DNA of 64,000 nucleotides from an uncultured Bacteroidales bacterium. GTDB lineage: Bacteria > Bacteroidota > Bacteroidia > Bacteroidales > UBA932. A program made the translations under genes and the position numbers. The notes below the pieces were generated by a model that was not told the DNA's origin, did not search any database, and worked only from the letters and a program-made list of their open reading frames with translations. The stretch spans positions 186,001 through 250,000 of the forward strand of contig CALUPB010000004.1 in NCBI GenBank assembly GCA_944322585.1. Reading direction: 5' to 3'. This document shows positions 44,264-64,000 of this stretch, piece by piece (within the stretch, counting starts at the first letter, position 1; every line of letters begins with the position of its first letter).

Positions 44264-46531
44264 TCACCTCATATCAAATGTTCCCGTCAGCCGTATATCG
44301 GAACTTGATGCCCCCAACATAACCTTGAACAATCCGGGTTCCACGACTCTTTCCATATTTACATTCCATAGGGACATTACATCCTCGGAAACAGGAATTT
44401 TTATCCTTTTCGTTTCTCCTGGATCCAGAGGAACACGCAGAAATCCTGCCAGTTTCATTGAAGGTGTAACAACACTGCTGACCTCGTCACATATATAACA
44501 CTGCACAACCTCTTCTCCGTACCGGTTCCCTACATTTTCGATATCAAGAGCCACTGTCACTTCTCGTCCGTCCTGCAATATCTCCATATCGGAATACTCG
44601 AAATCAGTATAACTGAGTCCGTGTCCGAAAGCATAGAGAGGTGTGTTATTTTCATCGACATAATTATGCCAGGATGTTTTCATATGGTTATAGTAAATCG
44701 GAATCTGGCCCATTGAACGTGGAAATGTCATAACAGTCTTACCGGAAGGATTCACTCTGCCCAGTAAAATGTCCGCCACAGCATATCCTGTCATCTCCCC
44801 CGGGAACCATGCCTCCACTATGGCAGATGCCCTCTCATCTATATCATTAAGTATCAACGGTCTCCCGTTGAGCAGAACGACAACGAGAGGGATGTCAAGT
44901 TTTGTCAATGCATCCAGAAGTTCTATCTGGCACTTTTCTACTGAAACATCAGCCAGATCCTTGCCTTCTCCGACCCTTGATCCGTCCTCTCCAAGTACAA
45001 GTATAATTATATCAGACTCACCGGCAGTCTTTACAGCTTGTTTGAGCAAATCCGGCTGTCCTGTAGAATTACATTTATATCCCTGTGCATAATCGACATC
45101 CACTCTACCGTCAGTTCTTGATAATATACCGTCCAGGACTGATATTCCTTTCCCCGGACGATATCCGTTAAGCGGAGTCGATGTAGAGTATCCTCCAAGA
45201 TATGTACTTTTCGCCAATTCTCCTATCACTGCGATGCGCTTGCCTGAAATATTTTCCAACGGCAATACATCTTGCGAGTTTTTCAACAGGCAAATGCTCT
45301 TTCTGGCCAACTCCAAGGCAATATCCCTATGCTTTTTACAATTTCCCACCTTTGCATACAATGTAGTATCGACATATGGGTTCTCAAAAAGTCCGAGACG
45401 GAACTTCACCCTGAGAAAATCATCCAAAGCATTGTCAAGATCCTTTTCAGACAATCTACCTTGTCGCAAAGCTTCCTTGATTGCACGACGATACGGTTCC
45501 AGTTCAAATTCCCTTAACGGCATATTCATACCTGCAAGAAATGTCTTGCTGAGGACATCCACTGTATCCTCTGCAACACGATGATCTGACATAGCTATCC
45601 TGATTGCCGTCAAATCAGACATAACATAACCGTCAAATCCCCATTCATCCCGGAGCAGATCTGACAAAAGCCATTTGTTGACAACACAAGGGATACCGTC
45701 TATTTCGTTATATGCAGCCATTACACATTGAGGATCAGCTTCTTTTATCACTTTTTCAAAAACGGACAGATATGTCGTTCTTGCCTCTCGTTCTCCGATA
45801 TTGACGTGAGACCAGTTGCTTCCTGCCTCAGGGATTCCGTGAACAGCAAAATGTTTCAATTCACACGCAACAGCATCATTTCTGGCAAGATCATCCGTCT
45901 GCATTCCTTTTACCATCAAAGAACCTATTGTTGAAGAAAGGAATGGATCCTCACCATAAGTCTCCCCTATACGTCCCCACCTCGGATCATTGGAAAGGCA
46001 CAATACCGGAGACAGTGCCATATGGACTCCGAACGCCCGGCATTCCGTACCGATGACTCTGGCCATTTTACTTACCAATGTTGTATCCCAGGCAGACGCA
46101 ATACCCAACGGTATAGGGAAAACAGTACCACCTTCTCCCTGATAACCGTGCAGGGCTTCTTCCTGAAAAAGAAGAGGAATGCCCAACCTTGTCTTTTCCA
46201 CAGCATACTTTTGTATCTCATTGACCATCGTCACATTATTTATCGGGTAAAGATCATAGATTATTCCTCCCCCAATATCTCCCAATGTCTGTCTTGTCTT
46301 TAGAGAATCGAACCCTACTGCACCTTCCGGGATGAGACTGGCGACTTCTTTGCCCCAAAACACAAACAGTTGATTAATCTTTTCGTCAATTGTCATCCGG
46401 TCTACAAGATCCTTAACCCTCGCATCCAAAGGAGCCGACGGATCTTTATACACACACCTGTCGGAACAGGCCACCAGCAATAGTTGGACAAAGCAAACTA
46501 TAGCAATCAATTTTACGGAAAGGTTTTTCAT
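44264..46531 (-). CDS. GH3 beta-glucosidase, lipoprotein
   Basis: A 755-residue glycoside hydrolase family 3 enzyme of BglX size. The signal peptide ends in a lipobox (L-L-L-V-A-C). The N-terminal TIM barrel has the nucleophile Asp near residue 302 in G-Y-V-M-S-D-L-T-A-I, K-H-F-A-like substrate motif as L-K-H-F-A-V-H-G near 228, and the second alpha/beta domain near 400-620 carries L-V-L-G-E-D-G and P-L-V-V-V-L-L-N-G-R-P. A fibronectin-III-like domain closes the protein (D-P-G-E-T-K-R-I). GH3 enzymes release terminal beta-linked glucose or xylose. It is the last gene of the locus, eight bases after GH78, and probably trims oligosaccharides in the periplasm. Confidence 0.92.
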   Translation of the reverse strand: MKNLSVKLIAIVCFVQLLLVACSDRCVYKDPSAPLDARVKDLVDRMTIDEKINQLFVFWGKEVASLIPEGAVGFDSLKTRQTLGDIGGGIIYDLYPINNVTMVNEIQKYAVEKTRLGIPLLFQEEALHGYQGEGGTVFPIPLGIASAWDTTLVSKMARVIGTECRAFGVHMALSPVLCLSNDPRWGRIGETYGEDPFLSSTIGSLMVKGMQTDDLARNDAVACELKHFAVHGIPEAGSNWSHVNIGEREARTTYLSVFEKVIKEADPQCVMAAYNEIDGIPCVVNKWLLSDLLRDEWGFDGYVMSDLTAIRIAMSDHRVAEDTVDVLSKTFLAGMNMPLREFELEPYRRAIKEALRQGRLSEKDLDNALDDFLRVKFRLGLFENPYVDTTLYAKVGNCKKHRDIALELARKSICLLKNSQDVLPLENISGKRIAVIGELAKSTYLGGYSTSTPLNGYRPGKGISVLDGILSRTDGRVDVDYAQGYKCNSTGQPDLLKQAVKTAGESDIIILVLGEDGSRVGEGKDLADVSVEKCQIELLDALTKLDIPLVVVLLNGRPLILNDIDERASAIVEAWFPGEMTGYAVADILLGRVNPSGKTVMTFPRSMGQIPIYYNHMKTSWHNYVDENNTPLYAFGHGLSYTDFEYSDMEILQDGREVTVALDIENVGNRYGEEVVQCYICDEVSSVVTPSMKLAGFLRVPLDPGETKRIKIPVSEDVMSLWNVNMERVVEPGLFKVMLGASSSDIRLTGTFDMR

Positions 46532-49304: not shown

Positions 49305-49529
49305 TTATTTATTCATTTCAGGTATTTCTTCCGTCTTGACCTGTTTTTCCGATAATGGGAAAACAACGACTTCAAATTTGTTCATCTCTGAAACAAGAGA
49401 ATTTGTCATGTCCGGTCCAACTCTGGATATATCTTTTAATCCTGATAACGCGCAGAACTGAATTATGGTCACTTTCATACATTGTATGATAGCAAAAATC
49501 AGTTTTATTATGGACAGATTATTTGTCAT
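49305..49529 (-). pseudogene. Small ORF or gene remnant with TolB-N/FlgO-like pattern
   Basis: A 74-codon frame fills the only large gap (225 bases) in the operon. It starts at an ATG overlapping the end of the DUF5107-TPR gene by 11 bases and stops 11 bases before the GH78 start, so spacing fits a gene. From the internal Met18 onward the text I-I-Q-F-C-A-L-S-G-L then G-P-D-M-T-N-S-L-V-S-E-M and F-E-V-V-V-F resembles the first strand-helix-strand unit of TolB-N/FlgO/CsgG-like domains (V-L-P-F-x-N-L-S-G ... L-x-x-x-L ... F-x-V-V). That domain is normally over 100 residues, so a truncated remnant is my preferred reading. It could also be a real small protein or chance. Confidence 0.3.
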
Positions 49530-52500
49530 TATTCAGGAATGCCTTCGCCCATACTGAATCGGAATCCATAGCGACTGCCTTTTCAAAGCATTCATTTGCC
49601 CTTTCCGTATCTGACTCGATCAAATATGCAAGCCCCCTGTAATAATAGGCTTTAGCCCGGTTTTCATTTACATTTCCTTCATTACCGAACTTTGAATACT
49701 GATCTACTGAGAAATCTTCCTCGTCAATCCGGCCTATTCTTTCCTGCATTCTACGTATTGCCATATCCGCCTCACTTTTTTCTCCAAGAGCGAGGCAAGC
49801 CATAATCTTATAATAGCACAATTCAAAATCACTCTCATCAATGGCACTGACTTTGGAATAATGGTATTTCGCTTTCCTCCTGTCACCCAATTTGTCATAT
49901 GCCATCCCAATATAATAGTGTACTTTAGGATTATAATATCCCGTATAATATTGTCCTACTTCGAGATTGTCTGGGAATGCGTCAGCCGAGACAAAATCCT
50001 TCAGAGCAGTCTTGACATTGCCTGCCTTATACTGCTCTATACCTCTGAGAAGATGTGCGTCTACATACATATTATGATTTCCTCCTCCTTCCCATACATG
50101 AAAATGATAATTGTCGAGTATATCAATAGCCTCATCATATTTACCGGTCTGTATATAAAGGGATACTAGTCTCAAAACTGCATCACCGTGTTTAAATGCA
50201 GTATTTATATTGCCAGAAAACAGTTTCAGCCTGACTTCCGGAAGATCCCCTGCCTGCTCTCTTATGTTGTCTGCCTCAACAAGCAGCCTCGGATCACCGT
50301 TGTCTATTTCAATTGCTTTTCCATAGTACTCTAAGGCAATATCAAATTGCGACTTCCTGCCATATGCGAACCCCAAATTCCTGAATACGGTCTTGAAATC
50401 TGCACCAAGATCCACCGCTTTCTTCCAACATGCAATGCCGTTGTCGTACTGATCAAGATAATAATAAAGATTACCTAAGTAATAGTACATTTTTTCATCT
50501 TCAGGATTCATTTTCAAAATATCCTGAAACATCTCGATTTCTTCGATTCGGAATGGGAAACAATAATCTGTCGGCTGGCTGTGCCCGAGATCAATATACT
50601 CGTATGCCTTCATAATTGATTTGACTTTCATACAACAATATCCGGCATAGTAATACACAAGCGGGAAACTGTCATAAGGCGCCCCGCATCCGACAGCAGC
50701 CTCAAGTACAGCCAAAGCATCATCATAGGCACCCAACTGCATATATTTGCGCACAGTCTCAATCAGATCCTGCTTCTCGATGAAGCTGTCGCCCTTGAAC
50801 AATACATTGCCAAGGTCTGCTGACGTCATACTCCCCTTGTTGCAGAAAACCCGTTCTATATCAGCCCATCTGTCCAATGGACTGATCTCTACTACTTTAT
50901 CGAGAAGAGAAAGTGCTTCGCCTACTCTACCTGTTTTACGCAAAAAACATGCACCCATTATATAGGCTTCAGGATTTCTGCCCCCTGTATACACTGCATT
51001 CTCAATATGTTCCAATGCCTTCCCGTAATCTTCCTCAATAGCGGCAATACGTGCGAGCGCAAGATACGCAGGATGCTGGTACGCGGTAGACCATGTAACT
51101 TTCCAATAAAGATCCTCCGCTTCCTTCAATCTCCCTTGCAGTTCATTGCACAAGGCCAGATAATATAGAGGTTCAATTTCTTTCGGGGTGGTATAATCTC
51201 GTGTCAGTTTATCCACCGCCCTTTGCAAATATTTGCCAGCCAGATCGAAGCTTCCTTTTTTCAGATATCTTATCCCCATAGCAGTGTTAACTCTTGCATC
51301 TGTGGAATCTCTAGCAAGGGCTTCAAGATAATACGGTTCCGGCAATACCCGGGCATTATGAAATTGTTCCAGTCTAAGTCCTGTAAGATATAGATCCTCA
51401 ATTGTTGTGTATTCGGAAGGTGATTTTACATCAGACACTACTTCCGGCATTGGAGCTTCCGTTATTCTGACAGGTGTATAGGAAATCAGATCCTGTCCTT
51501 CCTGGCTGAAAAGGGATACCGTGAAAAGTGTTTGTGCCGGAAATTTCTTGACATCTATGATATTAGTATACGGAGTATTGGGATCAAGAGTCACAACTTC
51601 TTCAAATATCGTCTCATCTCCATAGAATACCTTAACCCGGGCGTCTTTTCTGAGAGTCGTTGTGTTGAATCCTATGAACATCTTACCGTTTTTATCAAAT
51701 TCTACATTTACTGCACCTTCGGCTGTCGCATTCTTCACTCCCCTGATGCCTTTTATCGGATACCAGATATGACTGAACTCTCTTACTGTTCCCGGATAAA
51801 TCCAGCTATAATCAGGCTGATTGTCAGAATATGCCCCAACCATCAGTTCCAGATACTGTCCGTCATTGTCCGATAACATTTTGTCCCATACTTTTGCAGA
51901 CGGATTATTTCCCCATAGAAAAAATTTCTTTCCGTTTACCTGATGGTGATTTGCCACGTGAACAATCCCTGCATCCCTACCATGATCATATCCGGCCAGA
52001 AAATCATCTTCAAAATTCCAAGCAAATATTGATCTGGAGTTGTAAACATAATTTTTCCAAAGTGACAGGTCTTCAATCTGGCCGCTGCCCGGGACAATCT
52101 CTCCCATTTTCCATTTTGTAAAACTAACTTTTGAATGATCTGTCCCGAATTGGGTACGCGGAGGAAATATCACTTCGTAATTTTCATCACAGTGAACAGA
52201 AACGTTTGCCCAATAAAGCATGGAATGGGTAAACGGAGTACCATTGGCAATACGTACTTTTGCCTCTACCCACGAGCGTCCCGGATAAAGTGTGACACCG
52301 ACGGCCCAATCCATCCGATGGCGCAGTTCCGTTTCTCCTACCCATATTGTTTTGCTGCCATCCTCATTGTCCTGTTCTTTCCAGTCTATAGCCATATAAC
52401 TGCTTGGACGATGATGATGTGGGAAATTCCATTCGACACCCCCGGAAAGCCAGGCACCCAGCATTCCTATCAATGCCGGTTTAATCCCAGTCTGTCTATA

Positions 52501-52842
52501 GAAAAAATCATACCCATTGTCCTTGTCAGTCCCCGAGAATATACGTCCTCCAAGTTCCGGCAGTACCGATACATTGACATAATCGTTTTCCAAGACAAGT
52601 TCCGTATAATCTTTAATGACTTTATTGTCTGTCAGGACATCATACATCGGATATGGGTAAACGTGTCCCTGAGCTCCCTGATACACTCGTCCAGTATAAA
52701 AGACCGGACTTGTTTCCGGCTTTCCGATTTCATATACAGGAAGGGACTTGATCCCTTCCTTGTAGTCCACTTCTCCTGATTGAGCTACAGCTAAAACCGG
52801 AAACAAGATAACAATCAGTAAAACTATAATTCTAGATTTCAT
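49519..52842 (-). CDS. DUF5107 domain protein with C-terminal TPR array
   Basis: A 1107-residue secreted protein with a Sec signal (cleavage near V-A-Q). Residues about 30-330 are the DUF5107 domain, with Y-P-Y-P-M-Y-D near 65, L-P-E-L-G-G-R-I-F near 97 and the W-N-F-P-H-H-H-R-P near 138; the fold pattern recalls galactose mutarotase-like beta-sandwiches that bind sugars. A middle strand-rich linker follows (about 370-450) and then TPR units to the end (Y-Y-L-G-N-L-Y-Y-Y-L-D-Q-Y-D-N-G, A-L-E-Y-Y-G-K-A-I-E-I). DUF5107-TPR proteins recur in Bacteroidota glycan loci; I know of no established activity. Here it lies 16 bases after GH16 within the operon. Confidence 0.85.
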   Translation of the reverse strand: MKSRIIVLLIVILFPVLAVAQSGEVDYKEGIKSLPVYEIGKPETSPVFYTGRVYQGAQGHVYPYPMYDVLTDNKVIKDYTELVLENDYVNVSVLPELGGRIFSGTDKDNGYDFFYRQTGIKPALIGMLGAWLSGGVEWNFPHHHRPSSYMAIDWKEQDNEDGSKTIWVGETELRHRMDWAVGVTLYPGRSWVEAKVRIANGTPFTHSMLYWANVSVHCDENYEVIFPPRTQFGTDHSKVSFTKWKMGEIVPGSGQIEDLSLWKNYVYNSRSIFAWNFEDDFLAGYDHGRDAGIVHVANHHQVNGKKFFLWGNNPSAKVWDKMLSDNDGQYLELMVGAYSDNQPDYSWIYPGTVREFSHIWYPIKGIRGVKNATAEGAVNVEFDKNGKMFIGFNTTTLRKDARVKVFYGDETIFEEVVTLDPNTPYTNIIDVKKFPAQTLFTVSLFSQEGQDLISYTPVRITEAPMPEVVSDVKSPSEYTTIEDLYLTGLRLEQFHNARVLPEPYYLEALARDSTDARVNTAMGIRYLKKGSFDLAGKYLQRAVDKLTRDYTTPKEIEPLYYLALCNELQGRLKEAEDLYWKVTWSTAYQHPAYLALARIAAIEEDYGKALEHIENAVYTGGRNPEAYIMGACFLRKTGRVGEALSLLDKVVEISPLDRWADIERVFCNKGSMTSADLGNVLFKGDSFIEKQDLIETVRKYMQLGAYDDALAVLEAAVGCGAPYDSFPLVYYYAGYCCMKVKSIMKAYEYIDLGHSQPTDYCFPFRIEEIEMFQDILKMNPEDEKMYYYLGNLYYYLDQYDNGIACWKKAVDLGADFKTVFRNLGFAYGRKSQFDIALEYYGKAIEIDNGDPRLLVEADNIREQAGDLPEVRLKLFSGNINTAFKHGDAVLRLVSLYIQTGKYDEAIDILDNYHFHVWEGGGNHNMYVDAHLLRGIEQYKAGNVKTALKDFVSADAFPDNLEVGQYYTGYYNPKVHYYIGMAYDKLGDRRKAKYHYSKVSAIDESDFELCYYKIMACLALGEKSEADMAIRRMQERIGRIDEEDFSVDQYSKFGNEGNVNENRAKAYYYRGLAYLIESDTERANECFEKAVAMDSDSVWAKAFLNNDK

Positions 52843-52858: not shown

Positions 52859-53668
52859 TTATTTATAATATCTTACCCAGTCTACGTAATATTTCGCCGG
52901 GAAAATGCTGTCATCTATTCCGTGGACACCGCCCCATGCTCCGCCTACAGCAAGATTTATCAATAAAAAATGAGGTTTGTCGAATCTCCAGTACGAATCC
53001 GGATAGTCAGATTTTCTGTAGGAATATGTTCTTTTGCCATCAATGAAAAAATCAAGAGATTCATCAGTCCATTCCATGGCATACACGTGAAAATCCGAAT
53101 AAGGTTCATTGATCTTTGTTTGCACGTGAACATATGTAGGGCCATTATCAGGATCAAGTTTACGCTGTATTTCAAATCCAGGGGTATGCACAGTAGAATA
53201 AATTGTATTAGGGAAATATCCCACATATTCCATAATGTCAATTTCCCCGCAGTCTGGCCAGTTCACATCTGGATAATCAGAGCCCATCATCCAGATTGCA
53301 GGCCATATGCCCCTGCCTTTCGGCAATTTAGCCCTGACTTCTATACGGCCCCTGAAAAAATCAACCTTACCTAAGGTATTAATGCTGGCTGATGTATAAT
53401 CTATCGTATCATTATGCTCTTGCCGTGCCTCAATGACAAGACAGCCTTTTTCAACTCTGGCATTTGCCTCGTCCTTGCAGGTGTAGTACTGAGCTTCATT
53501 TCCCCTGATATAGCCGACTTCATAGTTCCAGATTCGGTCATCAGGAAGTCCCTTGTAATCAAATTCTTCTGACCAAGCCAAACGACCGTTTACACTGTAC
53601 TGGCCATACATTGAGAGTCCTGACGCCAGCAATATGACTATTGTAGACATCGCTATTTTCAATTCCAT
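52859..53668 (-). CDS. GH16 beta-glucanase (laminarinase-like)
   Basis: A 269-residue secreted endo-hydrolase with a signal peptide (residues about 6-22). The GH16 signature is G-E-I-D-I-M-E: nucleophile Glu142, assisting Asp144 and acid/base Glu147. The extra Met between Ile and Glu gives the beta-bulge form typical of laminarinases, agarases, carrageenases and porphyranases, as opposed to lichenases. N-Y-E-V-G-Y-I-R-G-N-E-A-Q near 47-60 and the closing N-L-A-V-G-G-A-W-G-G are typical of the endo-beta-1,3-glucanase group (GH16_3), so laminarin-like cleavage is most likely. It is preceded by the InlB/BspA-type gene (12-base gap) and is the only clear backbone-cleaving endo-enzyme in the part of the locus visible here. 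Confidence 0.9.
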   Translation of the reverse strand: MELKIAMSTIVILLASGLSMYGQYSVNGRLAWSEEFDYKGLPDDRIWNYEVGYIRGNEAQYYTCKDEANARVEKGCLVIEARQEHNDTIDYTSASINTLGKVDFFRGRIEVRAKLPKGRGIWPAIWMMGSDYPDVNWPDCGEIDIMEYVGYFPNTIYSTVHTPGFEIQRKLDPDNGPTYVHVQTKINEPYSDFHVYAMEWTDESLDFFIDGKRTYSYRKSDYPDSYWRFDKPHFLLINLAVGGAWGGVHGIDDSIFPAKYYVDWVRYYK

Positions 53669-53680
53669 ATTAACCCGCCT

Positions 53681-55348
53681 TTATTGTTTTGCCTGTATAA
53701 CTGAAGAATATTCCGGCATACTTTCCTTGTAAGCATCCGTTGCTCCAGCCGGAACGTATATGGCCGTAACTTTCGGAAGGGCCTTGCCATCGTCCGTTTT
53801 CAATCCGCATCCTTCGATCACAGGAGGTGTCATTGATGAGAATTCTATAGTTTCCAGAACATTGCAATTGGTAAATGCCCAGGCCTTAATCTCTACAGGC
53901 GCGTCCCCTGCAAATCTCAAAGTTTTCAAAGCCTGCTGATTAACAAATGCTCCCACATTGAATAGAATATCTCCCCCTTCAAATGTCAAAGACTGAATAG
54001 TTGCATTGTTTGAGAAAGCATCTGCAGAGAAAGCAGTGATAGCCTTCCCATCAATTGATGACGCTATTACAAGATCTGTCTGGTTCATTCCATTAGGAGT
54101 GAAACCTGTAACCGTTCCGTCTTTGACAAATACGGGCTGCTCCAATGCCGTTTCGGAAGGATTGATTCTTTCCGAGAACTTTGACCAGTTGGGATCAGCA
54201 AGATAATCAGCTTCCTCCTCCTCAGGCACTGTAATTACGACAGGTGCTCCCACAAACGGCATCTGATTGTTGTCGGTGGAAAGAAAAGGCACTTTGTCTT
54301 CTCTTGTAGTTTTAGGTTCCATAACCAATGACACAAGATTCACACAATCAAAGAAAGCACCCTTAGACCATCCGTTGATGGCAATAAGAGACCCCGGCAA
54401 AGATATCTCGGCTAGACTACGGCACTCTGCAAATGCACCTATTCCTATGATTTCCAAAGTACTGCCTTCATCAAAAATTATTTCGCTCAAATTATTGGCT
54501 CCCCTGAACGCCCTGAACCATATTTGCTTGACATTTTTACCTACTGTCACTTTCCTGATATACTGGTTATATTCAAAGGCGCCTTTCGCCATAGCGTCAT
54601 AATCGGGTATTTCAGCCGTCTGTCCTTCTGCCGAGCATATTGCAAAAACCGGCTTGCCGTCTATGATGTCAGGTATATGTATTTCGGCCGCATCCGGCAG
54701 GAACTTTTCCTTTATACCGGTAACAAGTACACCTCCGGCAAAATCGCCAGTCCCGTCAACATACGTAAAAATATTTTCCTCCCATTTTGCATACAGAGTG
54801 ATGTCGGAAACTACTTCTGTTCCATTCTCCCCGAACACGAATGGGATTCTGCATTCTTGATCAGTATACCACCCTATGAAAATATAATCAGGCACGACAG
54901 GCACTTTTGGCTCATTCTCTACTGTACTTCCTTCCGTCACTTTTATCGGATCCGGTGCCGTCCCTTCAAAACCGTTCAAATCAAAGACAACTGTATATTC
55001 GACTGCAATTTCTGTCCATTTTGCATATAATGTCATATCTTTATTCACCTGGGTTCCATCAGGTCCGAATATGAATTCATTGGTACAAGATTTTTCAGTG
55101 AACCAGCCACCGAATTCATACCCGTCCCTAAAAGGATCCTCGGGAGCCTCCAGAACAGTACAACCGGCCTCCACCATTACTTTTTCAGGTACAGATCCAA
55201 TCGCTCCGTTAAGGTCAAATATTACCGTATACTCAATCTTTTCATCATCGCCATTATTCTCATTCACTTTATCACACGAACACAATGATATGCCAAGCAT
55301 TGCCAATCCTGCGGCAATCAAACTTTTAGACAATATTAACGATCTCAT
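53681..55348 (-). CDS. Surface lipoprotein with InlB B-repeats and BspA-type leucine-rich repeats
   Basis: A 555-residue lipoprotein (lipobox L-C-S-C, then acidic residues D-K-V-N-E-N-N-G-D-D-E, suggestive of surface export). Two Listeria-Bacteroides (InlB B) repeats of about 75 residues follow, each running Y-T-V-I/V-F-D-L-N-G to T-L-Y-A-K-W, at about 40-112 and 114-190. The rest (about 195-555) consists of BspA-type LRR_5 units, for example F-E-Y-N-Q-Y-I-R-K-V-T-V-G and A-F-A-E-C-R-S-L-A-E-I-S-L-P. Such proteins bind protein or glycan ligands; none has enzyme motifs. In this locus it may serve as an extra surface glycan-binding protein. It lies 50 bases after the third paralog gene. Confidence 0.82.
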   Translation of the reverse strand: MRSLILSKSLIAAGLAMLGISLCSCDKVNENNGDDEKIEYTVIFDLNGAIGSVPEKVMVEAGCTVLEAPEDPFRDGYEFGGWFTEKSCTNEFIFGPDGTQVNKDMTLYAKWTEIAVEYTVVFDLNGFEGTAPDPIKVTEGSTVENEPKVPVVPDYIFIGWYTDQECRIPFVFGENGTEVVSDITLYAKWEENIFTYVDGTGDFAGGVLVTGIKEKFLPDAAEIHIPDIIDGKPVFAICSAEGQTAEIPDYDAMAKGAFEYNQYIRKVTVGKNVKQIWFRAFRGANNLSEIIFDEGSTLEIIGIGAFAECRSLAEISLPGSLIAINGWSKGAFFDCVNLVSLVMEPKTTREDKVPFLSTDNNQMPFVGAPVVITVPEEEEADYLADPNWSKFSERINPSETALEQPVFVKDGTVTGFTPNGMNQTDLVIASSIDGKAITAFSADAFSNNATIQSLTFEGGDILFNVGAFVNQQALKTLRFAGDAPVEIKAWAFTNCNVLETIEFSSMTPPVIEGCGLKTDDGKALPKVTAIYVPAGATDAYKESMPEYSSVIQAKQ

Positions 55349-55398: not shown

Positions 55399-56646
55399 TT
55401 ATTTCCTGTCCAGCATTATATACTTCACAGCATCCTCCACATCCATTCCCGCAGGACAGGCCTCCGATTTTGTATTGGCCCTGAATCTTGTAGGTTTATG
55501 CGGGTCACCGGTCACCAGAACACGTGATACCGGCAACTGCAAATATATATCTGTAGTATTGGTTTTTATCCAATTGTCTGCATACCACAGCCACCGGTTG
55601 ATTGCATCCGGGCTTCCCTGAAGGTAAAGCCAGGATATCTCATCATATCCCCATACATAGTAATCTTCTTCAGCGATTCCAGGATGCCGGCTTATTCCAT
55701 AATTATCAAATTCAACAAGATAAGGCAATGCCTTGACGTAATGTCCTGACGGTGTCCGGCATTCCCTGGTTCTGCCATATACAGCATCCAGATAGCCTTT
55801 TTCCAACACACACGTGCGAGGTCTCTCTCCAATAAGATTTTTGATTCTCAACGGATATGATTTGAAATCAAGAAGGCTTTTCTCTCCAACCATCATATCA
55901 TCCGGCCCACAATGGCTGTCAAGCAGAATCCACTTCCTACGGGCATTTTCAAACGCGTATTTTCTGACACATGACAGAAAAGAATCCCATACAGAATTGT
56001 CAGCATCGGCAACTCCTGTGAGATTTGTCTGTCCCAAATGTATTGCTTCGCAACCGATATTTATATACGAACCAATAAGAAACATAAACCATAATCTTGT
56101 TTCCGTTTTTGTGATATCAGGTACAAGCCCCGCAGTGCCCCACAATCCAAAATAAGGGTTGGACGGATCTGACATATCATCATATCGGAAAGTTCTGTTT
56201 TCCACAGGCATATCGAGAGCCTCGAATGTCCACTCCGGGATCCGTATCGTTTCCACTTCCTTGGAAACATATTCAAATACACATCCTTGAAAGATGATAT
56301 CGGAATCATAATCGTGTAATTCTCTGATTATTTTTTCAGCACTTGCAAGATAATCCGGATCATTGAATGCCGATTCCGTTCCCCATCGATATATCGCCCG
56401 CCCGATAAATTTGGGAGCGATATTTTTTATCATTCTGATGTCATCTTCTCTGTATGGATATGGCCCGTCCGCAGTATATGGCTCAGGAGACAGGAAATCT
56501 GCCATAGTCACCGCTCTTTCCATATAGTTCCGCAGTACGTTGTCTGTTATTACGGCATTAAAACTGTAATCCCGCACTTCCTGGTTTCTTGAACAGGCGG
56601 CCGAAATAATACAGATTGCAAAGAGAACTCTATTAAACCCTTTCAT
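55399..56646 (-). CDS. Lipoprotein of unrecognised family, copy 3 (most divergent)
   Basis: A 415-residue lipoprotein starting M-K-G-F-N-R-V-L-F with lipobox I-S-A-A-C; the ATG at 56646 is two bases after the stop of copy 2 and preceded by GGGGGAAC, better than a longer start inside copy 2. It aligns along its whole length with the two neighbours but at clearly lower identity. Shared blocks are K-F-I-G-R, F-E-Y-V-S, I-H-L-G-Q, D-S-H, L-D-F-K-S-Y-P, L-V-E-F-D-N, G-I-S-x-H-P, G-Y-D and the C-terminal A-N-T-K-S-E-x-C-P-x-G-M. The Glu that follows I-H-F-G-Q-A in the other copies is Asn here. Strand-helix alternation suggests a TIM-barrel hydrolase, which is inference. I recognise no named family. 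Confidence 0.7.
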   Translation of the reverse strand: MKGFNRVLFAICIISAACSRNQEVRDYSFNAVITDNVLRNYMERAVTMADFLSPEPYTADGPYPYREDDIRMIKNIAPKFIGRAIYRWGTESAFNDPDYLASAEKIIRELHDYDSDIIFQGCVFEYVSKEVETIRIPEWTFEALDMPVENRTFRYDDMSDPSNPYFGLWGTAGLVPDITKTETRLWFMFLIGSYINIGCEAIHLGQTNLTGVADADNSVWDSFLSCVRKYAFENARRKWILLDSHCGPDDMMVGEKSLLDFKSYPLRIKNLIGERPRTCVLEKGYLDAVYGRTRECRTPSGHYVKALPYLVEFDNYGISRHPGIAEEDYYVWGYDEISWLYLQGSPDAINRWLWYADNWIKTNTTDIYLQLPVSRVLVTGDPHKPTRFRANTKSEACPAGMDVEDAVKYIMLDRK

Positions 56647-56648
56647 AC

Positions 56649-57947
56649 TCAGTTCCCCCACATTTTTTTAATTGTCTCCTCCTGCCCCATACCTTCAGGA
56701 CAGTTTTCCGATTTAGTATTAGCATAATAATATGTTCCCCAATATGAACTGGGTATAGTCACACCTCTTCTTGACAAAGGTTGCAAAAATCCGTTGGGAT
56801 CATGCTTCCCAAGCCATTCATATGAATATACAAGTATCTCGTTCCTATACCATTCCGGCTGCATATAAAACCAGGAGACACAATCATACCCATATAGCAT
56901 CCAATCATCCAACAGTCCGACATTAGGATGATCGCTTATTCCGCCATTGTCGTACTCTACCATATACGGACACACTTCACAGCTCCAACCGCTAGGCGTT
57001 ATACCGCCCTTACACTTGTTCCATATACCGTTGCTGTATCCTGGCTGTATTCTTACCCTCTGAGGTTCGACCAGATCCCCGGCCTTTTGCGGATTCGAAG
57101 GATATGCAGGAGGATCAAGTACCGGCATATAAATTATCGGGAACGAAACAAAATCAAAAACGAGATGGTCTCCAACCTTCATTCCGAAACTTGGAAGATG
57201 CGCATCGCAAATCAGAGTATGTCTTCTAGCTCTGGTCTTTGCCGCTTTCTTAATCATCATGATAAGTTTCTGCCATGTAATGTTGTGGGACGTATCTCTG
57301 TCCGAAATCATTTCTGCCTGTCCGAAATGAATTGCCTCTATGCCTGCATCCATATACAGGCAGGCCACATAATATATATACATCTGGCACATCAGATTCC
57401 CTATATACGGGACACCATCGGTGACACCTCCTCCAAGTTCACGGTTGTTTCCTGCAATTCCCTTCCAGGAAAAGAAAGTCTGTTCATCAGGAACAGGCAG
57501 TCCAAAATCCCTATAGACAAAATCCGGAATCGGAGTTCCATCCACATCCTGTGAAATGTATTCGAATATTGCACCCTGCAAAATAATTTCAGGATCTATC
57601 CTGTGAATGCTGTCTATCTTTTCCTTCACTTCTTTCAGCCAGTCAGGATTCCTCAAACGGCTCTCCCCTCCCCACATAAAAAGTGACCTTCCTATAAACT
57701 TCGCTCCCATATTCAACACACAACGGTCATCATCCTCAATATGAGAACTGTTGTTGGACATATTGTCTGCAAACTCAAAATGCGTCACCGCCCTTGACAA
57801 ATAGTTTTTCAAGACCTCTTCCGGAATTGTTCCGTCTCCCGGAAGCATATAGTTTCCTGTATTTTCCCAGGCTCCGTCCCTATGCCGGGAACATCCCGTC
57901 AACAAGACAACAATAACGGCAAATGGTATTAATTTCAATATTTTCAT
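56649..57947 (-). CDS. Lipoprotein of unrecognised family, copy 2
   Basis: A 432-residue lipoprotein (lipobox L-L-T-G-C). It is closely similar to copy 1 throughout, including long near-identical stretches such as N-T-G-N-Y-x-L-P-G-D-G-T-I-P-E-E-V-L and W-S-C-E-x-x-P-Y-M-V-E-Y-D-N-G-G-I-S-D-H-P. Conserved acidic residues lie at the ends of predicted strands: Glu in A-I-F-E-Y-I-S, Glu in G-I-E-A-I-H-F-G-Q-A-E, Asp in C-D-A-H, Asp in F-D-F-V-S and Glu-x-Asp-Asn in V-E-Y-D-N. These could provide catalysis if it is a glycoside hydrolase. It is 15 bases after copy 1 and 2 before copy 3. DNA-level similarity to copy 1 shows a tandem duplication. Confidence 0.7.
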   Translation of the reverse strand: MKILKLIPFAVIVVLLTGCSRHRDGAWENTGNYMLPGDGTIPEEVLKNYLSRAVTHFEFADNMSNNSSHIEDDDRCVLNMGAKFIGRSLFMWGGESRLRNPDWLKEVKEKIDSIHRIDPEIILQGAIFEYISQDVDGTPIPDFVYRDFGLPVPDEQTFFSWKGIAGNNRELGGGVTDGVPYIGNLMCQMYIYYVACLYMDAGIEAIHFGQAEMISDRDTSHNITWQKLIMMIKKAAKTRARRHTLICDAHLPSFGMKVGDHLVFDFVSFPIIYMPVLDPPAYPSNPQKAGDLVEPQRVRIQPGYSNGIWNKCKGGITPSGWSCEVCPYMVEYDNGGISDHPNVGLLDDWMLYGYDCVSWFYMQPEWYRNEILVYSYEWLGKHDPNGFLQPLSRRGVTIPSSYWGTYYYANTKSENCPEGMGQEETIKKMWGN

Positions 57948-57962
57948 ATCGCAAACCTTAAA

Positions 57963-59285
57963 TTATCTGCTCCACAATGCTTTTATGGTTTCCTCCTGTC
58001 CCATACCGTCAGGACAAGCATCTGACTTTGTGTTCGCATAGTAGTAAGTATTTCCGGAAACGAGTGTAGAGGCACGCCTTGACAAAGGCTGGAAAAAACC
58101 TATCGGATCATACTTCATATGCCATTCCGTGGCGTAAACTATAAATTCATTCTGATACCATTCCGGCTGCATATGAAACCAGGACACATCATCATATCCC
58201 CATAGCATCCAATCATTGACCCTGGCCTCATTAGGATGATCGCTTATTCCGCCGTTATCAAGTTCGACAAGGTACGGCACACGTTCACAGCTCCAGCCGC
58301 TAGGAGTAATACCTCCTTTCGACAGGAATTCCATGCCGTTTGAATAATACGGTTTTATGATGGCTTTCTGTGGCTTAATCAATTCTCTGGGCTTTGTAGG
58401 GAACTCCGGATACGGTTCCTCATCCATCACTGGCATAAGAATAAGAGGAAACGAAGTAAAATCAAATAACAATCTGTCTTCCACCTTCATTCCGCCAGAC
58501 GGCATATGTGCATCCGTGAGCAAAGTGTGCCTCCGCGCCCTGGTCTTGGCTGCATTTTTTATTTTCTTGAGTACATCTTCCCAATAAGGCCAGTAATCTT
58601 TGTTTCTTTGTGCAATCATTTCAGCCTGTCCAAAGTGAATAGCCTCAATCCCTGCATCCATATAAAGGCACGCAACATAATACAAATACATTCTGAACTC
58701 AAGTTTCGATATATCAGGGACAAATTCATCCACTCCATTTCCAAGTTCCGTATTGCTTCCAGACATTCTCTTCGCATTGAAGAATGTCTGATAATTAGGA
58801 ATCTTCTCACCGAAATCAGAATATACAAAATCAGGAATAGGAACAGTGTTCACTTCATCAGTAATAAATTCAAAAATCGCTGCCTGGAAAATGATTTCAG
58901 GGTAATCCTGATGTATCCGGTCTATCTTTTCCTTCACTTTCTCCAGCCATTCCGGATTATTCAGGCGACTTTCCCCTCCCCACATATACAACGACCTGCC
59001 AATAAATTTGGCCCCCATATTAAGTACAGCTCTCTCGTCATCCTCCTTATGAGGGCTGTTGTTAGAAAGATCGTCTGCAAATTCGAAATGGGTAATGGCT
59101 CTTGACATATAATTTTTCAGTACTTCCTCCGGAATTGTTCCGTCTCCAGGCAATTCATAATTGCCGGTGTTGACAAACGGTATTCTGTCCACTTCATGTT
59201 GACTGTCGAGATCAATACGTTCACAGGCATTCAATAAAATGACACTCACGAAAATTCCGATTATACATTCGATATGTCTTTTCAT
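57963..59285 (-). CDS. Lipoprotein of unrecognised family, copy 1
   Basis: A 440-residue lipoprotein (lipobox L-L-N-A-C21, then E-R-I-D-L-D, acidic enough for surface display). Blocks conserved in all three copies, with positions here: K-F-I-G-R 93-97, Glu139 in I-F-E-F, Glu214 and His217-x-Gly219-Gln220 in I-E-A-I-H-F-G-Q, Asp258 and His260 in T-D-A-H, Asp275 in F-D-F, Glu341-x-Asp343-Asn344 in V-E-L-D-N, G-I-S-D-H-P 346-351, G-Y-D 363-365 and A-N-T-K-S 417-421. Glu222 is shared only with copy 2. Many Trp and Tyr residues near 325-385 could line a sugar site. The position between surface-binding genes and GH16 suggests glycan processing; no function is established. Confidence 0.7.
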   Translation of the reverse strand: MKRHIECIIGIFVSVILLNACERIDLDSQHEVDRIPFVNTGNYELPGDGTIPEEVLKNYMSRAITHFEFADDLSNNSPHKEDDERAVLNMGAKFIGRSLYMWGGESRLNNPEWLEKVKEKIDRIHQDYPEIIFQAAIFEFITDEVNTVPIPDFVYSDFGEKIPNYQTFFNAKRMSGSNTELGNGVDEFVPDISKLEFRMYLYYVACLYMDAGIEAIHFGQAEMIAQRNKDYWPYWEDVLKKIKNAAKTRARRHTLLTDAHMPSGGMKVEDRLLFDFTSFPLILMPVMDEEPYPEFPTKPRELIKPQKAIIKPYYSNGMEFLSKGGITPSGWSCERVPYLVELDNGGISDHPNEARVNDWMLWGYDDVSWFHMQPEWYQNEFIVYATEWHMKYDPIGFFQPLSRRASTLVSGNTYYYANTKSDACPDGMGQEETIKALWSR

Positions 59286-59310: not shown

Positions 59311-60714
59311 TCAGTTGCCTGGTGCACAGGCAGTCAATATTTCCGGATCAATAACAGATCCACCGGCATCACCGAGAGTTACAGCGGCGTCGGGACTGAT
59401 TATTCCGGCATCCATATAGTACCTTATGCGGCAGAACCCCGGGTTTCCTGCAGCACCACCGCTGTTTGTGCCTTCCAATGCTATATCGGTATTGTGTGAT
59501 ATCGTGACATTGCCGCCTATTCGGGTCAACTTGTCAAATCCCCATAATCCGTGAATATCACAATTCATTATAGTAAGGTTACCTCCTATCTCCCGTAACT
59601 TTGTCATTTCGTTGAATGTCCAGGCGTCAGTCAGTCCTACATATGTGAAATTGCCTCCGACTTTTTCTAATTTATTGAACACAAAGCCTCCCCACGACAA
59701 CTTGATACCCTTGACAGAAAAATCGCCCTTGATTTCCACAATGGCTCCTGCGTCAACCTGAGTATTCATCTGGCATCCTTCTTCAATGACAAAATTTCCT
59801 CCGATTACAGTTCCAGACTTGAATTTAGGGAACGTACATTTGGCAGCGGACGTAAATGTGACATCACCGTTGAAATCGACATTTCCAAAGAACTTGTCTG
59901 CGTTCGTTACTCCTCCGGCATCAAAAATGAGCGTATCCACGACTTTCATTTTGCTGGCCAAGGTAGTTATCCCCCTGTCAGTCAAAGTGCCTTTGAGATG
60001 AAGATATGGAACAATATCCATACTCTTAAAAGAATTCGCCGCACCGTCGGAAGCTATTATGTATCGTCTTGATCCTCCAGGAGTCACACCTATGTCATCA
60101 ATGTCAGTAGCAGCGGCCGGATGATTGTTAGAAAGTTTGACTTCACCTTTAAGTATATCATTGTCGAGAAGATATCTTATCACATTGAATCCAAAGGAAT
60201 CCTCTTCTCCGACCTTGTTTTCTCCAAGGGATTTGTTGCCGGATATCTCAAGGTTCCCGTTATAAACCTTCAGCGTCATCAATGCGCTTATATCGGTAAG
60301 TTTCGGATTATTGTCAATCCTGATTGTCCCGAGCATAAACTTGAATATATCCCAGTCTGCAATCGTTTCCAGTTCATTGTTACCTTCAATATTCAAGGCG
60401 ATCTGTACGGCGCTAAGTTTCTTGATTGCCAGTTTCTTGATTCCTGTATTCCGTATATTTATGATTTTCGCTGATTTAATGTCAAGATCAGTCAGATCGG
60501 TCACATCAGGGCCTTCAATTGTAAGAGTATGTATATCCTTCCCTTCCGAGGTAAAGGATTCGACATCATTCTGGTTTGTTATTACAAAATTGTCTCCTCT
60601 CTCCAACTCTCCGGTTTTCTCGACACAGCCAAGCAGTCCGAGGCAACAGAACACAGCCAAGAAAGAGCGCGATACCAATATACTGTCAAAATATTTTCTC
60701 ATTGTCGAAGTCAT
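59311..60714 (-). CDS. Surface glycan-binding-protein candidate with beta-solenoid repeats
   Basis: A 467-residue lipoprotein encoded directly after SusD with a four-base ATGA overlap, the classic position of a surface glycan-binding protein. The lipobox is L-G-L-L-G-C, followed by the acidic V-E-K-T-G-E-L-E-R-G-D. I keep the ATG at 60714; M-R-K-Y-F at 60702 is the alternative. The body is repetitive, with strand units such as L-T-I-E-G-P-D-V-T-D-L-T-D-L, G-N-L-E-I-S-G-N, G-G-N-F-T-Y-V-G, G-G-N-L-T-I-M-N and G-G-N-V-T-I-S-H-N, resembling receptor-L-domain or leucine-rich beta-solenoids rather than the Ig-domain SusE/SusF type. The ligand would be the locus's glycan. Confidence 0.75.
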   Translation of the reverse strand: MTSTMRKYFDSILVSRSFLAVFCCLGLLGCVEKTGELERGDNFVITNQNDVESFTSEGKDIHTLTIEGPDVTDLTDLDIKSAKIINIRNTGIKKLAIKKLSAVQIALNIEGNNELETIADWDIFKFMLGTIRIDNNPKLTDISALMTLKVYNGNLEISGNKSLGENKVGEEDSFGFNVIRYLLDNDILKGEVKLSNNHPAAATDIDDIGVTPGGSRRYIIASDGAANSFKSMDIVPYLHLKGTLTDRGITTLASKMKVVDTLIFDAGGVTNADKFFGNVDFNGDVTFTSAAKCTFPKFKSGTVIGGNFVIEEGCQMNTQVDAGAIVEIKGDFSVKGIKLSWGGFVFNKLEKVGGNFTYVGLTDAWTFNEMTKLREIGGNLTIMNCDIHGLWGFDKLTRIGGNVTISHNTDIALEGTNSGGAAGNPGFCRIRYYMDAGIISPDAAVTLGDAGGSVIDPEILTACAPGN

Positions 60715-62342
60715 TTAATGTTCAGGTCAATTTCAGTCTGAGGAATAGGATAAAAATACCTGTATGGAGATTCCATTACATCCGGCTTATTTGTTATATA
60801 GTTGTTGTCCACTCTGTTAGTTCTTCTCAAATCATATAAGCCGTGACCTTCGAATGCCAATTCCCACGTTCTCTCCCTATATACGGAATCTCTGAATTCG
60901 TTTACGCCGAGATTTTCTGTCAACGGATCCAATTTGGCCCTGGCTCTCACTTTATTGATCCATTTGTAACCTTCATCTGTAGGTCCTTCCGCTTCCGCAT
61001 AGATCAACGCCACTTCAGCAAATCTGATATAATACAGATTTGAACTGCAGTGTTCTTCTATTGAAATAGGATCAGTATATTTTCTACAAGCCGGATAACA
61101 GAGATTTCCCTGAGGGCTTTTGTCCCCGTCATATGGGATATTTGAAGGGGAGAATGCAGCCTGAGCTATTCCGTCTTTATTATAATACACATTTATCATC
61201 AAGCGTTTACGAAGATCTTTGTCTGAATATGTATCATAGAACCTGTAATCCGGCCTGAGAGTTGCCCAATTGTCTTTTGAATTTACATAACGCATCACTT
61301 TGTCTGCGCTCAAAGGTTTCATATCCCCAATTTCCACAGTTTCTATGTCCCTGACAATATACAGATCTTCATTCAGCATACCCAATCCGAAAAATTGAGG
61401 CAATTTGGAATATGTCCCTTCAACGCTGCCCTGTGCGTTCCTGCTCATTCCGCTTATAAAAATATGTTCCGGACAAGTCGCCTGCTTCTCTGTATCATAG
61501 ACGTCTCCGAGTTTTTGTGCCAGAGAATATATATCCTGGTCATACAGCACTTTTTTTGCATAATATGATGCTTTCCCGTACATTTCATCAGCATCCTTCA
61601 CCCAGCCATATCCTGGAGCGCCAGTCGCCTTTGAAGATGCGAGTGTCAGATATACTTTCGAAAGAAGAGCCCAGACACCGACAATATCCACCCTACCCTG
61701 AATTTTCTGTATAGTTGTCAAACTCTCTGCTGTTTCCAGTTGAGAAATAATGTATCCATAAACTTTCTCGATTGTGGAATACGGTTCATAATTTGATGAC
61801 GCGTCTTCAACAGCTGATGTTCTGAGAGGAACACTCGAAGAACCGTCAACACTGCCATAAGTACGGACAAGCATAAAATAGTTATAGGCAAGAAGAAAAT
61901 GCGCCTCTCCCAAAATCTGCTTTCTGGCATCTTCTGAGATATTCGTCATTTTCTCGACATTGCTGATTACCGTATGAGCCCTGCATATACTTGCATAAGC
62001 AGCTCTATAGAAAGTCGTTAGTTCTTTGGTTGTGGATGCGCTGATTCTGTTTCCCCAGTAAAAGAAATCATAATTTTCGGCTCCTCCCGAATTCTTTCCG
62101 CCCAATTCAGAGTACAGTATGAACTGATTAGTAGGGACATCACTCATAAGGAATAGAGCCCTTTGGGAATAGTCAATGAAATTTATCGGCAAATATGCAT
62201 ACAGCAACGCAGACAGAGCATCCTCTTCTGTCTGGAAAAATGTCTTGTTTGAATAGATACCGTAAGGCTCTTCCTCCAGAAGAGAAGAACATGAGACCAA
62301 CGTAAACAATAGCAGGATGATAGTATATAAATGTCTTTTCAT
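60711..62342 (-). CDS. susD: SusD/RagB family outer-membrane lipoprotein
   Basis: A 543-residue SusD-like protein, the lid of the SusCD glycan importer at the cell surface. The lipobox is L-V-S-C followed by S-S-L-L-E-E-E-P, an acidic start suited to surface export. The helical TPR-like core is visible (A-Q-I-L-G-E-A-H-F-L-L-A-Y-N-Y-F-M-L-V-R type near 150, and Y-Y-I-R-F-A-E-V-A-L-I-Y-A-E-A near 435), and the C-terminal block R-E-R-T-W-E-L-A-F-E-G-H-G-L-Y-D-L-R-R is diagnostic. It ends with Y-F-Y-P-I-P-Q-T-E-I. It starts 11 bases after susC and overlaps the next gene by four. Confidence 0.95.
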   Translation of the reverse strand: MKRHLYTIILLLFTLVSCSSLLEEEPYGIYSNKTFFQTEEDALSALLYAYLPINFIDYSQRALFLMSDVPTNQFILYSELGGKNSGGAENYDFFYWGNRISASTTKELTTFYRAAYASICRAHTVISNVEKMTNISEDARKQILGEAHFLLAYNYFMLVRTYGSVDGSSSVPLRTSAVEDASSNYEPYSTIEKVYGYIISQLETAESLTTIQKIQGRVDIVGVWALLSKVYLTLASSKATGAPGYGWVKDADEMYGKASYYAKKVLYDQDIYSLAQKLGDVYDTEKQATCPEHIFISGMSRNAQGSVEGTYSKLPQFFGLGMLNEDLYIVRDIETVEIGDMKPLSADKVMRYVNSKDNWATLRPDYRFYDTYSDKDLRKRLMINVYYNKDGIAQAAFSPSNIPYDGDKSPQGNLCYPACRKYTDPISIEEHCSSNLYYIRFAEVALIYAEAEGPTDEGYKWINKVRARAKLDPLTENLGVNEFRDSVYRERTWELAFEGHGLYDLRRTNRVDNNYITNKPDVMESPYRYFYPIPQTEIDLNIK

Positions 62343-62353
62343 ATCAGGAGAAA

Positions 62354-64000
62354 TTAAAATTTAAATTCAACACCCAATGTCGCAGTACATACTCTAGGAT
62401 ATGAAGCAGCTCCGTCAAGTCCGTTTTCTCCGAATTCCGGGTCATATTCATAATGTTTAAGTTTAGAAAAAGTAAACGGATTGCTTACATTCAAATAGAT
62501 CCTTAAATTGCCATTGTCCGTCCATAATAATTTTTCTGGCAATGTATAACCTAAAGTTATATTCTGGATTCTCAGGAATGAACCGTCTTCCACAAACCAA
62601 GATGAAGGGACGAGCCTGTTGCTCCTATCGTTCGAAAGTTTCGGGAATATTGTACTTGGATGTTCAGGAGTCCATCTGTATTGTTTCAACTGCACTCTAT
62701 TGTATTTTCCCATTGTAAATACGTCATTGCCATACACTGCATACATATATACAGACAGATCAAAACCTGTCTTATGATTCACGGTGATATTGAAACTCGT
62801 GGTGAAATCCGGATTCGGATCCCCGATCACAGTTCTTTTGTCAGGATCCAGAAGTCCGGTATACGGATCCATCCCGACATAATTGAATTCTCCTGGACGG
62901 GCATTGACACCTATATAGTTCCGATAGTCCGAATCAGGAAGATCCTCAGGAAGAGATTGTATGATACCATCCACTTCATATCCGAAAAATACATTCATAG
63001 GATATCCGATAGCCAAGACATTAAGAATATTGGTGCCGAATATGTAATTCCCGTAATCCTGATATCTGATACCGTTCACTTCATTGAAGCCCACAGCGTC
63101 CTTTGAAGACCCGATATTTAACACTTTGTTCCGGTTCAAGTTGAAAATCCATCCAAGATCAAAGCCGAAATCCCCTACATCGAACCTTCCCCGGACACTC
63201 AATTCAAATCCCTGGTTCAGGATATCCCCGTCATTGACCCATACTTTCGTATATCCGGTACTCGGGGCCATATATTTTTCTCTAAGGAGATCACTGGTCC
63301 TTTTATAATAATAATCCATCGTAAAATCCAACCGGTTGTCAAAAAACGACATATCCACACCGACATCGAATTGATGTGTTTTTTCCCAACTCAAATCAGC
63401 ATTCCCCATACCTGTAAATTCGGCATACCAGTATGTGTTCTGATTGGATGTTCTTATCCCTGGCCCTCTAATGACAAAACGCTGGCCGTTATAATAATAA
63501 TCTTCGGATCCGTATCTTTCTATGGATTGATACGGAGAAATGCCCTGATTACCTGAAAGTCCATAGGAAGCCCTCAGTTTCAGAAGGCTGACAACATCGA
63601 CATTTTCCATAAAGCCTTCTTCGGAAATTTTCCAGCCAATTGCTCCGGAAGGGAAAAATCCCCACTTGTTGTTTCTTCCAAATTTAGAAGAACCATCAGC
63701 TCTGGCAGTGAAAGTCAGAAAATACCTATTGTCATAATTGTAATTAAGACGAGTGAAGCCTGACAATGATTCATATGCCGTCATTGTATTGTTTATCAAC
63801 TGGACTGAAGCTCCAGACAGAGCTTCCTCTTTTAATACATGACTGGTAAATCCCCTTCCTTCCAGCGATTTGGTAGTTCCTGCAAATGTTTCGTAATTGC
63901 CGCCCACCATCATGCTCAGACCGTGTTTCCCAAAAGTTTTGTCAAATGTGAGGTATAAATCGAATATCATTTTATGCTCCTCATACACACTCTGATATCC
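62354..64000 (-). CDS. susC: SusC/RagA family TonB-linked outer-membrane transporter, 5' end outside window
   Basis: The C-terminal 548 residues of a SusC-like TonB-dependent transporter; the N-terminal carboxypeptidase-like domain, TonB box and plug lie beyond base 64000. The visible part is beta-barrel with characteristic SusC features: L-K-L-R-A-S-Y-G-L-S-G-N-Q-G near the first quarter, R-T-S-D-L-L-R, G-D-P-N-P-D-F-T-T-S-F, S-F-L-R-I-Q-N-I-T-L-G-Y-T-L-P and the last strand A-T-L-G-V-E-F-K-F. It pairs with the SusD protein to import oligosaccharides. The reading frame is open to the window edge. The promoter and any regulator must be to the right. Confidence 0.93.
   Translation of the reverse strand, partial: GYQSVYEEHKMIFDLYLTFDKTFGKHGLSMMVGGNYETFAGTTKSLEGRGFTSHVLKEEALSGASVQLINNTMTAYESLSGFTRLNYNYDNRYFLTFTARADGSSKFGRNNKWGFFPSGAIGWKISEEGFMENVDVVSLLKLRASYGLSGNQGISPYQSIERYGSEDYYYNGQRFVIRGPGIRTSNQNTYWYAEFTGMGNADLSWEKTHQFDVGVDMSFFDNRLDFTMDYYYKRTSDLLREKYMAPSTGYTKVWVNDGDILNQGFELSVRGRFDVGDFGFDLGWIFNLNRNKVLNIGSSKDAVGFNEVNGIRYQDYGNYIFGTNILNVLAIGYPMNVFFGYEVDGIIQSLPEDLPDSDYRNYIGVNARPGEFNYVGMDPYTGLLDPDKRTVIGDPNPDFTTSFNITVNHKTGFDLSVYMYAVYGNDVFTMGKYNRVQLKQYRWTPEHPSTIFPKLSNDRSNRLVPSSWFVEDGSFLRIQNITLGYTLPEKLLWTDNGNLRIYLNVSNPFTFSKLKHYEYDPEFGENGLDGAASYPRVCTATLGVEFKF

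Follow-up and report, generated by a model that had tools for sequence, protein, structure and literature searches.

What do three adjacent, related lipoprotein genes contribute to a glycan-utilization operon when none of them carries a recognizable enzyme signature? The question is raised by a stretch of 64,000 nucleotides from an uncultured Bacteroidales bacterium (UBA932; assembly GCA_944322585.1, contig CALUPB010000004.1, positions 186,001-250,000), hereafter the window, in which the three genes lie in tandem:

57963-59285, minus strand: P1, lipoprotein of 440 aa, family member, subfamily A
56649-57947, minus strand: P2, lipoprotein of 432 aa, subfamily A, sister of P1
55399-56646, minus strand: P3, lipoprotein of 415 aa counted from an ATG, probably subfamily B

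We propose that P1-P3, as exported lipoproteins, belong to a glycoside hydrolase (GH) family that is unnamed in Pfam, NCBIfam, and the sequences of the PDB, a reading to which we give a probability of roughly three in four. What the computations establish is the family itself, its predicted fold, the invariance of its residues, the operon, a conserved gene cassette, and gene fusions.

End-to-end alignment with MAFFT gave 65% identity between P1 and P2 and 36% between P1 and P3, and the three N-termini contain, by eye, lipobox-like ends (LNAC, LTGC, and SAAC), bearing out the description in a first-pass annotation of three adjacent lipoproteins alignable over their full length, the first two close and the third diverged. 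The P3 open reading frame (ORF) can also be read from a GTG (55399-56661, 420 aa); the ATG at 56646 leaves 2 bp to the P2 stop. Searched against its own genome, P1 recovered P2 (E 6.3e-189) and P3 (E 1.3e-61), and no fourth copy was found there with P1 as query, a P3 query likewise leading to three places. A scan of one genome per species (84,980 species), in which a peptide-pattern match was required first, confirmed 341 relatives; the phylum list and neighborhood counts given below rest on the best 80 of these 341 places, corresponding to 79 distinct loci (designated by L numbers). Our alignment of 84 rows comprises 81 of 91 extracted relatives together with P1-P3, and leaves out four fused ORFs (L055, L069, L048, and L070), five close kin of kept rows (the second copy of L024, L050, L058, L060, and L067), and one fragment (L063:2-463).

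No convincing match to P1, P2, or P3 was detected in Pfam or NCBIfam (June 2026), the best (0.091) being to a lipoprotein signal, in keeping with the earlier remark that the family has no recognizable signature. Against PDB sequences, both P1 alone and the 84-row profile produced chance-level matches only (GRC3 kinase and GTP-binding proteins). Searched singly against Pfam, the 84 rows gave scattered weak matches, the commonest family being hit by three of them (E 0.02); two touched the GH95 C-terminal domain, the likeliest reason being that L051 and L053 were excised from GH95 fusions. Nothing convincing was found in PHROGs with P1 and P3, a plasmid collection searched with P3 returned zero matches, and the best hits in a viral structure library (E 2.9e-05) were generic barrels, some of them named glycosyl hydrolase. 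Keyword searches of the literature, which are nonexhaustive and constitute weak evidence, did not find a description of the family.

Structure prediction followed by a Foldseek search, which the first-pass annotation had suggested, returned the TIM-barrel, glycosidase-like fold it had envisaged. The AlphaFold models of P1 (mean pLDDT, the predicted local distance difference test score, 91.9) and of a distant member (95.9; this second model used 64 of the 84 alignment rows) are both TIM barrels, and glycoside hydrolases make up almost all of the top structural matches of both. The 50 VIA rows listed per model are likewise nearly all glycosidases or amylase-fold proteins, in lists where the absence of a family does not exclude that family.

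The six acids singled out earlier as invariant largely remain so across the alignment (P1 numbering): E139, E214, D275, E341, and D343 are present in 84 of 84 rows and D258 in 83. Beyond these, D365, H217, Q220, and H260 are invariant in all 84 rows, and K93, R97, W102, Y59, W369, and Y384 are further invariant positions. Strand 4 carries the invariant residues H217, G219, and Q220, and strand 5 carries D258 and H260. The strand-end placement that the first-pass annotation gave to the six acids stands for three of them: E139, E341, and D343 sit at a strand C-terminus or directly after it in each model, whereas E214 and D275 immediately precede a strand and D258 lies within one. Strand 338-341 ends in E341 in all 84 rows, strand numbering beyond residue 260 being unsure.

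The tandem genes belong to an operon on one strand that runs from an ECF-type (extracytoplasmic function) sigma factor through FecR, SusC, SusD, a leucine-rich repeat (LRR)/Receptor-L protein, P1, P2, and P3 to a List-Bact/LRR lipoprotein, GH16, a DUF5107-TPR (tetratricopeptide repeat) protein, GH78, and GH3. This order includes 3.7 kb of the contig outside the window, and the contig ends soon past the sigma factor. The genes flanking P1-P3 in the window are as follows:

62354-64000, minus strand: SusC-like TonB-dependent transporter running past the window edge (1118 aa; L101:354-3710, minus strand)
60711-62342, minus strand: SusD-like protein (PF07980, PF14322)
59311-60714, minus strand: LRR/Receptor L domain protein (PF01030, 1.9e-06), third gene of the conserved cassette and a probable surface glycan-binding protein
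53681-55348, minus strand: lipoprotein with library matches to List-Bact repeats and BspA-type LRR, a probable second surface protein
52859-53668, minus strand: GH16 (PF00722, 6.3e-22)
49519-52842, minus strand: DUF5107 and TPR protein (PF17128, 6.4e-49)
46540-49293, minus strand: GH78-type alpha-L-rhamnosidase (PF17389, 1.9e-120)
44264-46531, minus strand: GH3 (PF00933, 5.8e-63)

Pfam thus confirms the GH16, GH78, and GH3 genes reported nearby by the first-pass annotation. From SusC to GH3 the intergenic gaps are -4 to 50 bp, except for 225 bp between DUF5107 and GH78. With SusC and SusD adjacent and accompanied by carbohydrate enzymes, the locus is a polysaccharide utilization locus. The DUF5107-TPR protein is 1107 aa long, and we know of no enzyme role for it.

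The glycan-utilization context that had been claimed for the window recurs among relatives, in cassette loci and in fusions. An orthologous SusC-SusD-LRR-family gene cassette is found in 9 of the 79 loci (L015, L016, L017, L021, L022, L024, L027, L030, and L082), its SusD proteins being 43-50% identical to the window SusD, its LRR partners 29-37% identical to the window LRR protein, and its SusC proteins 45-52% identical to the window SusC (C-terminal 544 aa as query), against 35% or less for the remaining SusC proteins compared. GH92 lies downstream in six of the nine, of which L022, L024, and L027 are close relatives and hence nonindependent; the six genomes contain 2 to 16 GH92 matches each in 2.2-5.8 Mb, so that by our own estimate GH92 would be expected in such a flank by chance in roughly 1-6% of cases. 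The Sunxiuqinia locus has, besides GH92, a GlcNAc-2-epimerase-type (N-acetylglucosamine) gene, GH130, and a sodium-solute symporter on the opposite strand, together with an AraC regulator, and by eye the Maribellus locus has the same genes. The Pedobacter locus encodes a DeoC aldolase, a Gfo/Idh/MocA protein, D-lyxose isomerase, and a PfkB kinase; the Cryptobacteroides locus has an AraC regulator, and no additional sugar gene was spotted there by eye. GH92 and the sugar genes point to a mannose-containing glycan in some relatives, and the substrate of several probably contains mannose. The three GH92 matches of the window genome are all on other contigs, and the window has GH16, GH78, and GH3 where relatives often carry GH92, so its glycan may differ.

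Thirteen long fused ORFs were scanned, and another domain above the Pfam cut-off was found in 10, 9 of them of carbohydrate-enzyme type. The partners are GH95 (L051 and L053), a rhamnogalacturonase-type helix (L055 and L069), WbsX (L070), GH43_C2 (L032), DUF5696 with subthreshold GH101 similarity (L057:5958-9119, L060:5943-9119, and L067:5964-9119), and a Gfo/Idh/MocA oxidoreductase in a single open frame (L048:7890-10172), which is either a true fusion or a sequencing artifact. L044 and L059 have no extra domain and L035 has one below the cut-off; long frames outside the scan include L052, L054, and L062. In the DUF5696 fusions the family domain lies behind DUF5696, and the three bins are labeled Planctomycetota. 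A GH95 cluster also adjoins the family in five loci, and the same partner being both fused and adjacent is good evidence for a shared pathway. The Pfam tally of neighbors covered 57 of the 72 immediate neighbors listed. A cluster of GH99-like genes was seen near the family in nine loci (L025, L026, L028, L039, L047, L052, L054, L055, and L088), and one of its three scanned members reached the Pfam GH99 cut-off.

Hydrolysis itself, the residues that form the catalytic pair, a cell-surface location, and the nature of the substrate are what we infer from these data. Each protein would be a single TIM barrel whose open end binds a glycan chain that the SusD-like and LRR proteins present. Two invariant carboxylates at the barrel mouth would form the catalytic pair, the likeliest being E139, which follows strand 3, together with E341 or D343; the cut pieces would then be imported by SusC and broken down further by the GH16, GH78, and GH3 enzymes of the operon. 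A bolder version, which we hold only tentatively, is that the proteins found a GH family of unusual layout, in which an invariant strand 4 His-x-Gly-Gln replaces the acid and catalysis is by Glu139 (strand 3) and Glu341/Asp343 (strand 7), possibly aided by His217/His260, in many bacterial phyla and perhaps in Asgard archaea. If the proposal is true, the standard libraries lack a name for an enzyme family that is known from hundreds of loci, has an importer cassette of its own, and is repeatedly fused to GH95, rhamnogalacturonase-type, and GH99-like domains. Identifying its substrate would then account for several polysaccharide utilization loci together, and its unusual active-site signature would be a test of how catalytic acids can be placed in a TIM barrel.

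Several observations weigh against the glycoside hydrolase assignment. TIM barrels are common among non-glycosidases, and the template modeling (TM) scores of the models to GH113 rows are just 0.38-0.56. Strand 4 (215-220) terminates in Q220 in 84 of 84 rows; the nearest conserved acid after it is at position 228, where 77 of the 84 rows have Asp but P1 has Asn. Many retaining TIM-barrel glycosidases have a catalytic Asp or Glu at strand 4; with no invariant acid there, the family is set apart from the well-known retaining TIM-barrel families, and the gap signals either an unusual glycosidase or a different chemistry. The two invariant histidines would suit a metal site too, and P1 and P2 depart from 88 nearly invariant columns at 16 and 15 positions, respectively. 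Profile comparison with hhalign, for which each locus of the comparison sets was represented by the longest ORF spanning its middle (L106 alone being checked individually), gave 0.2-0.4% against GH113 (six rows; 0.4% without one wrong row), a partial match of 10% against GH5 (86 columns, E 0.003), and 0.6% against the 12-gene GH99-like neighbor cluster. Controls gave 100% within the family and 74% for GH5 against GH113, so the test is able to see some clan-level kinship, yet it saw none for this family.

Other chemistry is the main rival. The proteins would then be non-hydrolase sugar enzymes on a TIM barrel, such as a metal-dependent isomerase, epimerase, aldolase, or lyase, with His217, His260, Asp258, Glu139, Glu341, and Asp343 as ligands. 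The pair of invariant histidines among many invariant acids, the missing acid at the end of strand 4, a weak UxuA match in one of 84 members (E 0.091), the aldolases 3n9s and 5c5y among the Foldseek matches of P1 (E about 5e-04), and the member in frame with Gfo/Idh/MocA are all consistent with it. We consider it improbable nonetheless, given an hhalign result of 0.1% against AP_endonuc_2 (PF01261, xylose-isomerase-like), the predominance of glycosidases and amylase-fold proteins in the VIA rows, and the signs of export (hydrophobic N-termini in 75 of 84 rows), importer cassettes, and carbohydrate-enzyme fusions. Still less probable is a noncatalytic TIM-barrel protein that binds glycan at the cell surface. 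Binding proteins are often encoded after SusC/SusD genes, and P1-P3 follow SusC, SusD, and LRR genes and have lipoprotein-like N-termini; however, the invariant polar residues are kept in phyla that lack SusC/SusD and in free-standing copies, and the family is fused to varied carbohydrate enzymes.

The proposed mechanism could also be right for a family already numbered in CAZy or published, which we think somewhat unlikely. With 341 relatives in one scan the family is large enough to have been noticed, the name search covered Pfam, NCBIfam, and PDB sequences, CAZy being outside it, and new GH families are founded often, GH192-194 (PMC12102758) and GH195 (PMC13063451) being examples. Against this stand the absence of a name from those three resources and of a description from the keyword searches. 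The first-pass annotation's proposal of a new carbohydrate-active family therefore holds as regards the missing Pfam and NCBIfam name, the TIM barrel, and the carbohydrate context, with its novelty subject to a possible CAZy number.

Comparison with known families places the nearest structural likeness in GH113 beta-1,4-mannanase (7dvj, 5yli, and 3civ), a TIM barrel that is the first Foldseek match of both models and likewise has a Glu ending a late barrel strand; identity is 9-12%, profile kinship and an invariant strand-4 acid are lacking, and PF22612 is absent from the Pfam matches of the 84 members, so that profile similarity gives no support to GH113 membership. Enzymes of clan GH-A (GH5, GH113, and others) share the TIM barrel and carry a catalytic Glu where strands 4 (as Asn-Glu) and 7 end, whereas the family lacks the strand-4 Asn-Glu; E341 would be its candidate for the strand-7 Glu, given the unsure strand numbering. 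For the GH5 exo-mannosidases 4lyr and 1uuq of clan GH-A, the profile match stops short of the catalytic half. In GH13, to which the amylase-type enzymes 5h06 and 1jib belong, the triad is Asp (strand 4), Glu (strand 5), and Asp (strand 7); the family invariants include neither that Asp nor that Glu, and there was zero Pfam match. GH168 endo-1,3-fucanase and GH158 endo-laminarinase rank high in Foldseek for the second model but were unmatched in the profile search of PDB sequences. None of the 84 members has a Pfam GH99 or WbsX match. GH195 is GH99-related and endo-acting on sulfated alpha-1,3-mannan, diatom alpha-mannan (PMC13063451). The context is alike, family neighbors including GH99-like genes, GH92, and sulfatases, and the GH99-like neighbor cluster may be related to GH195; the family's own kinship to that cluster is the 0.6% given above.

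The history of the copies was read from a quick maximum-likelihood tree with SH-aLRT (Shimodaira-Hasegawa-like approximate likelihood ratio test) support only. P1 and P2 are sisters (support 100) within a 17-row group A (97), and P3 falls within a 13-row group B (98). Pedobacter, Cryptobacteroides, and a Bacteroidales bin each carry an A gene and a B gene in the same order, and P3 is 49% identical to the second Pedobacter copy versus 36% to P1, which favors the split. The sequences suggest that an old A-B pair was likely followed by a later doubling of A. Two points weaken the split: an approximately unbiased (AU) test kept a single clade of P1, P2, and P3 at 0.05 (p-AU 0.069), and the window proteins are on long branches. 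Of the diverged local copies first described, P1 and P2 are thus confirmed as sisters, whereas P3 groups with the other subfamily and a single local radiation is improbable. The A-B pair is not universal, since in the Prolixibacteraceae the second tandem gene forms a separate branch and L021 has two group A genes. Clean separation of A from B occurs at just four positions, too few to argue for different linkages.

Export appears widespread: a hydrophobic stretch precedes the family domain in 75 of 84 rows, and most of the other nine are fusions or rows for which a late start was chosen. A simple pattern finds a lipobox-like motif in 23 of the 84, and judged by these N-termini the lipoprotein state is not common to the whole family. 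The family is patchy, being found in 3 of 199 genomes of the window's taxonomic family (three-row profile) and 3 of 395 of its phylum (84-row profile), own genome included in both. The tree spans eleven phylum labels, taken from record titles: Bacteroidota, Planctomycetota, Verrucomicrobiota, Armatimonadota, Acidobacteriota, Lentisphaerota, Ignavibacteriota, Chloroflexota, Poribacteria, Pseudomonadota, and Sigynarchaeota. Some of these, each from a single bin, may be wrong; the bin labeled Pseudomonadota (Algicola) has SusC/SusD. The family members of L031 and L032 are near-identical in bins labeled Chloroflexota and Planctomycetota, which suggests a mistaken label for one of the bins or else a recent transfer of the gene. 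Family members were also seen in bins of Sigynarchaeota (Asgard archaea) at L077:1285-2589 and L079:6059-7372, on short contigs (4.1 and 7.5 kb) for which misbinning is possible; a sulfatase-cluster gene is present on both.

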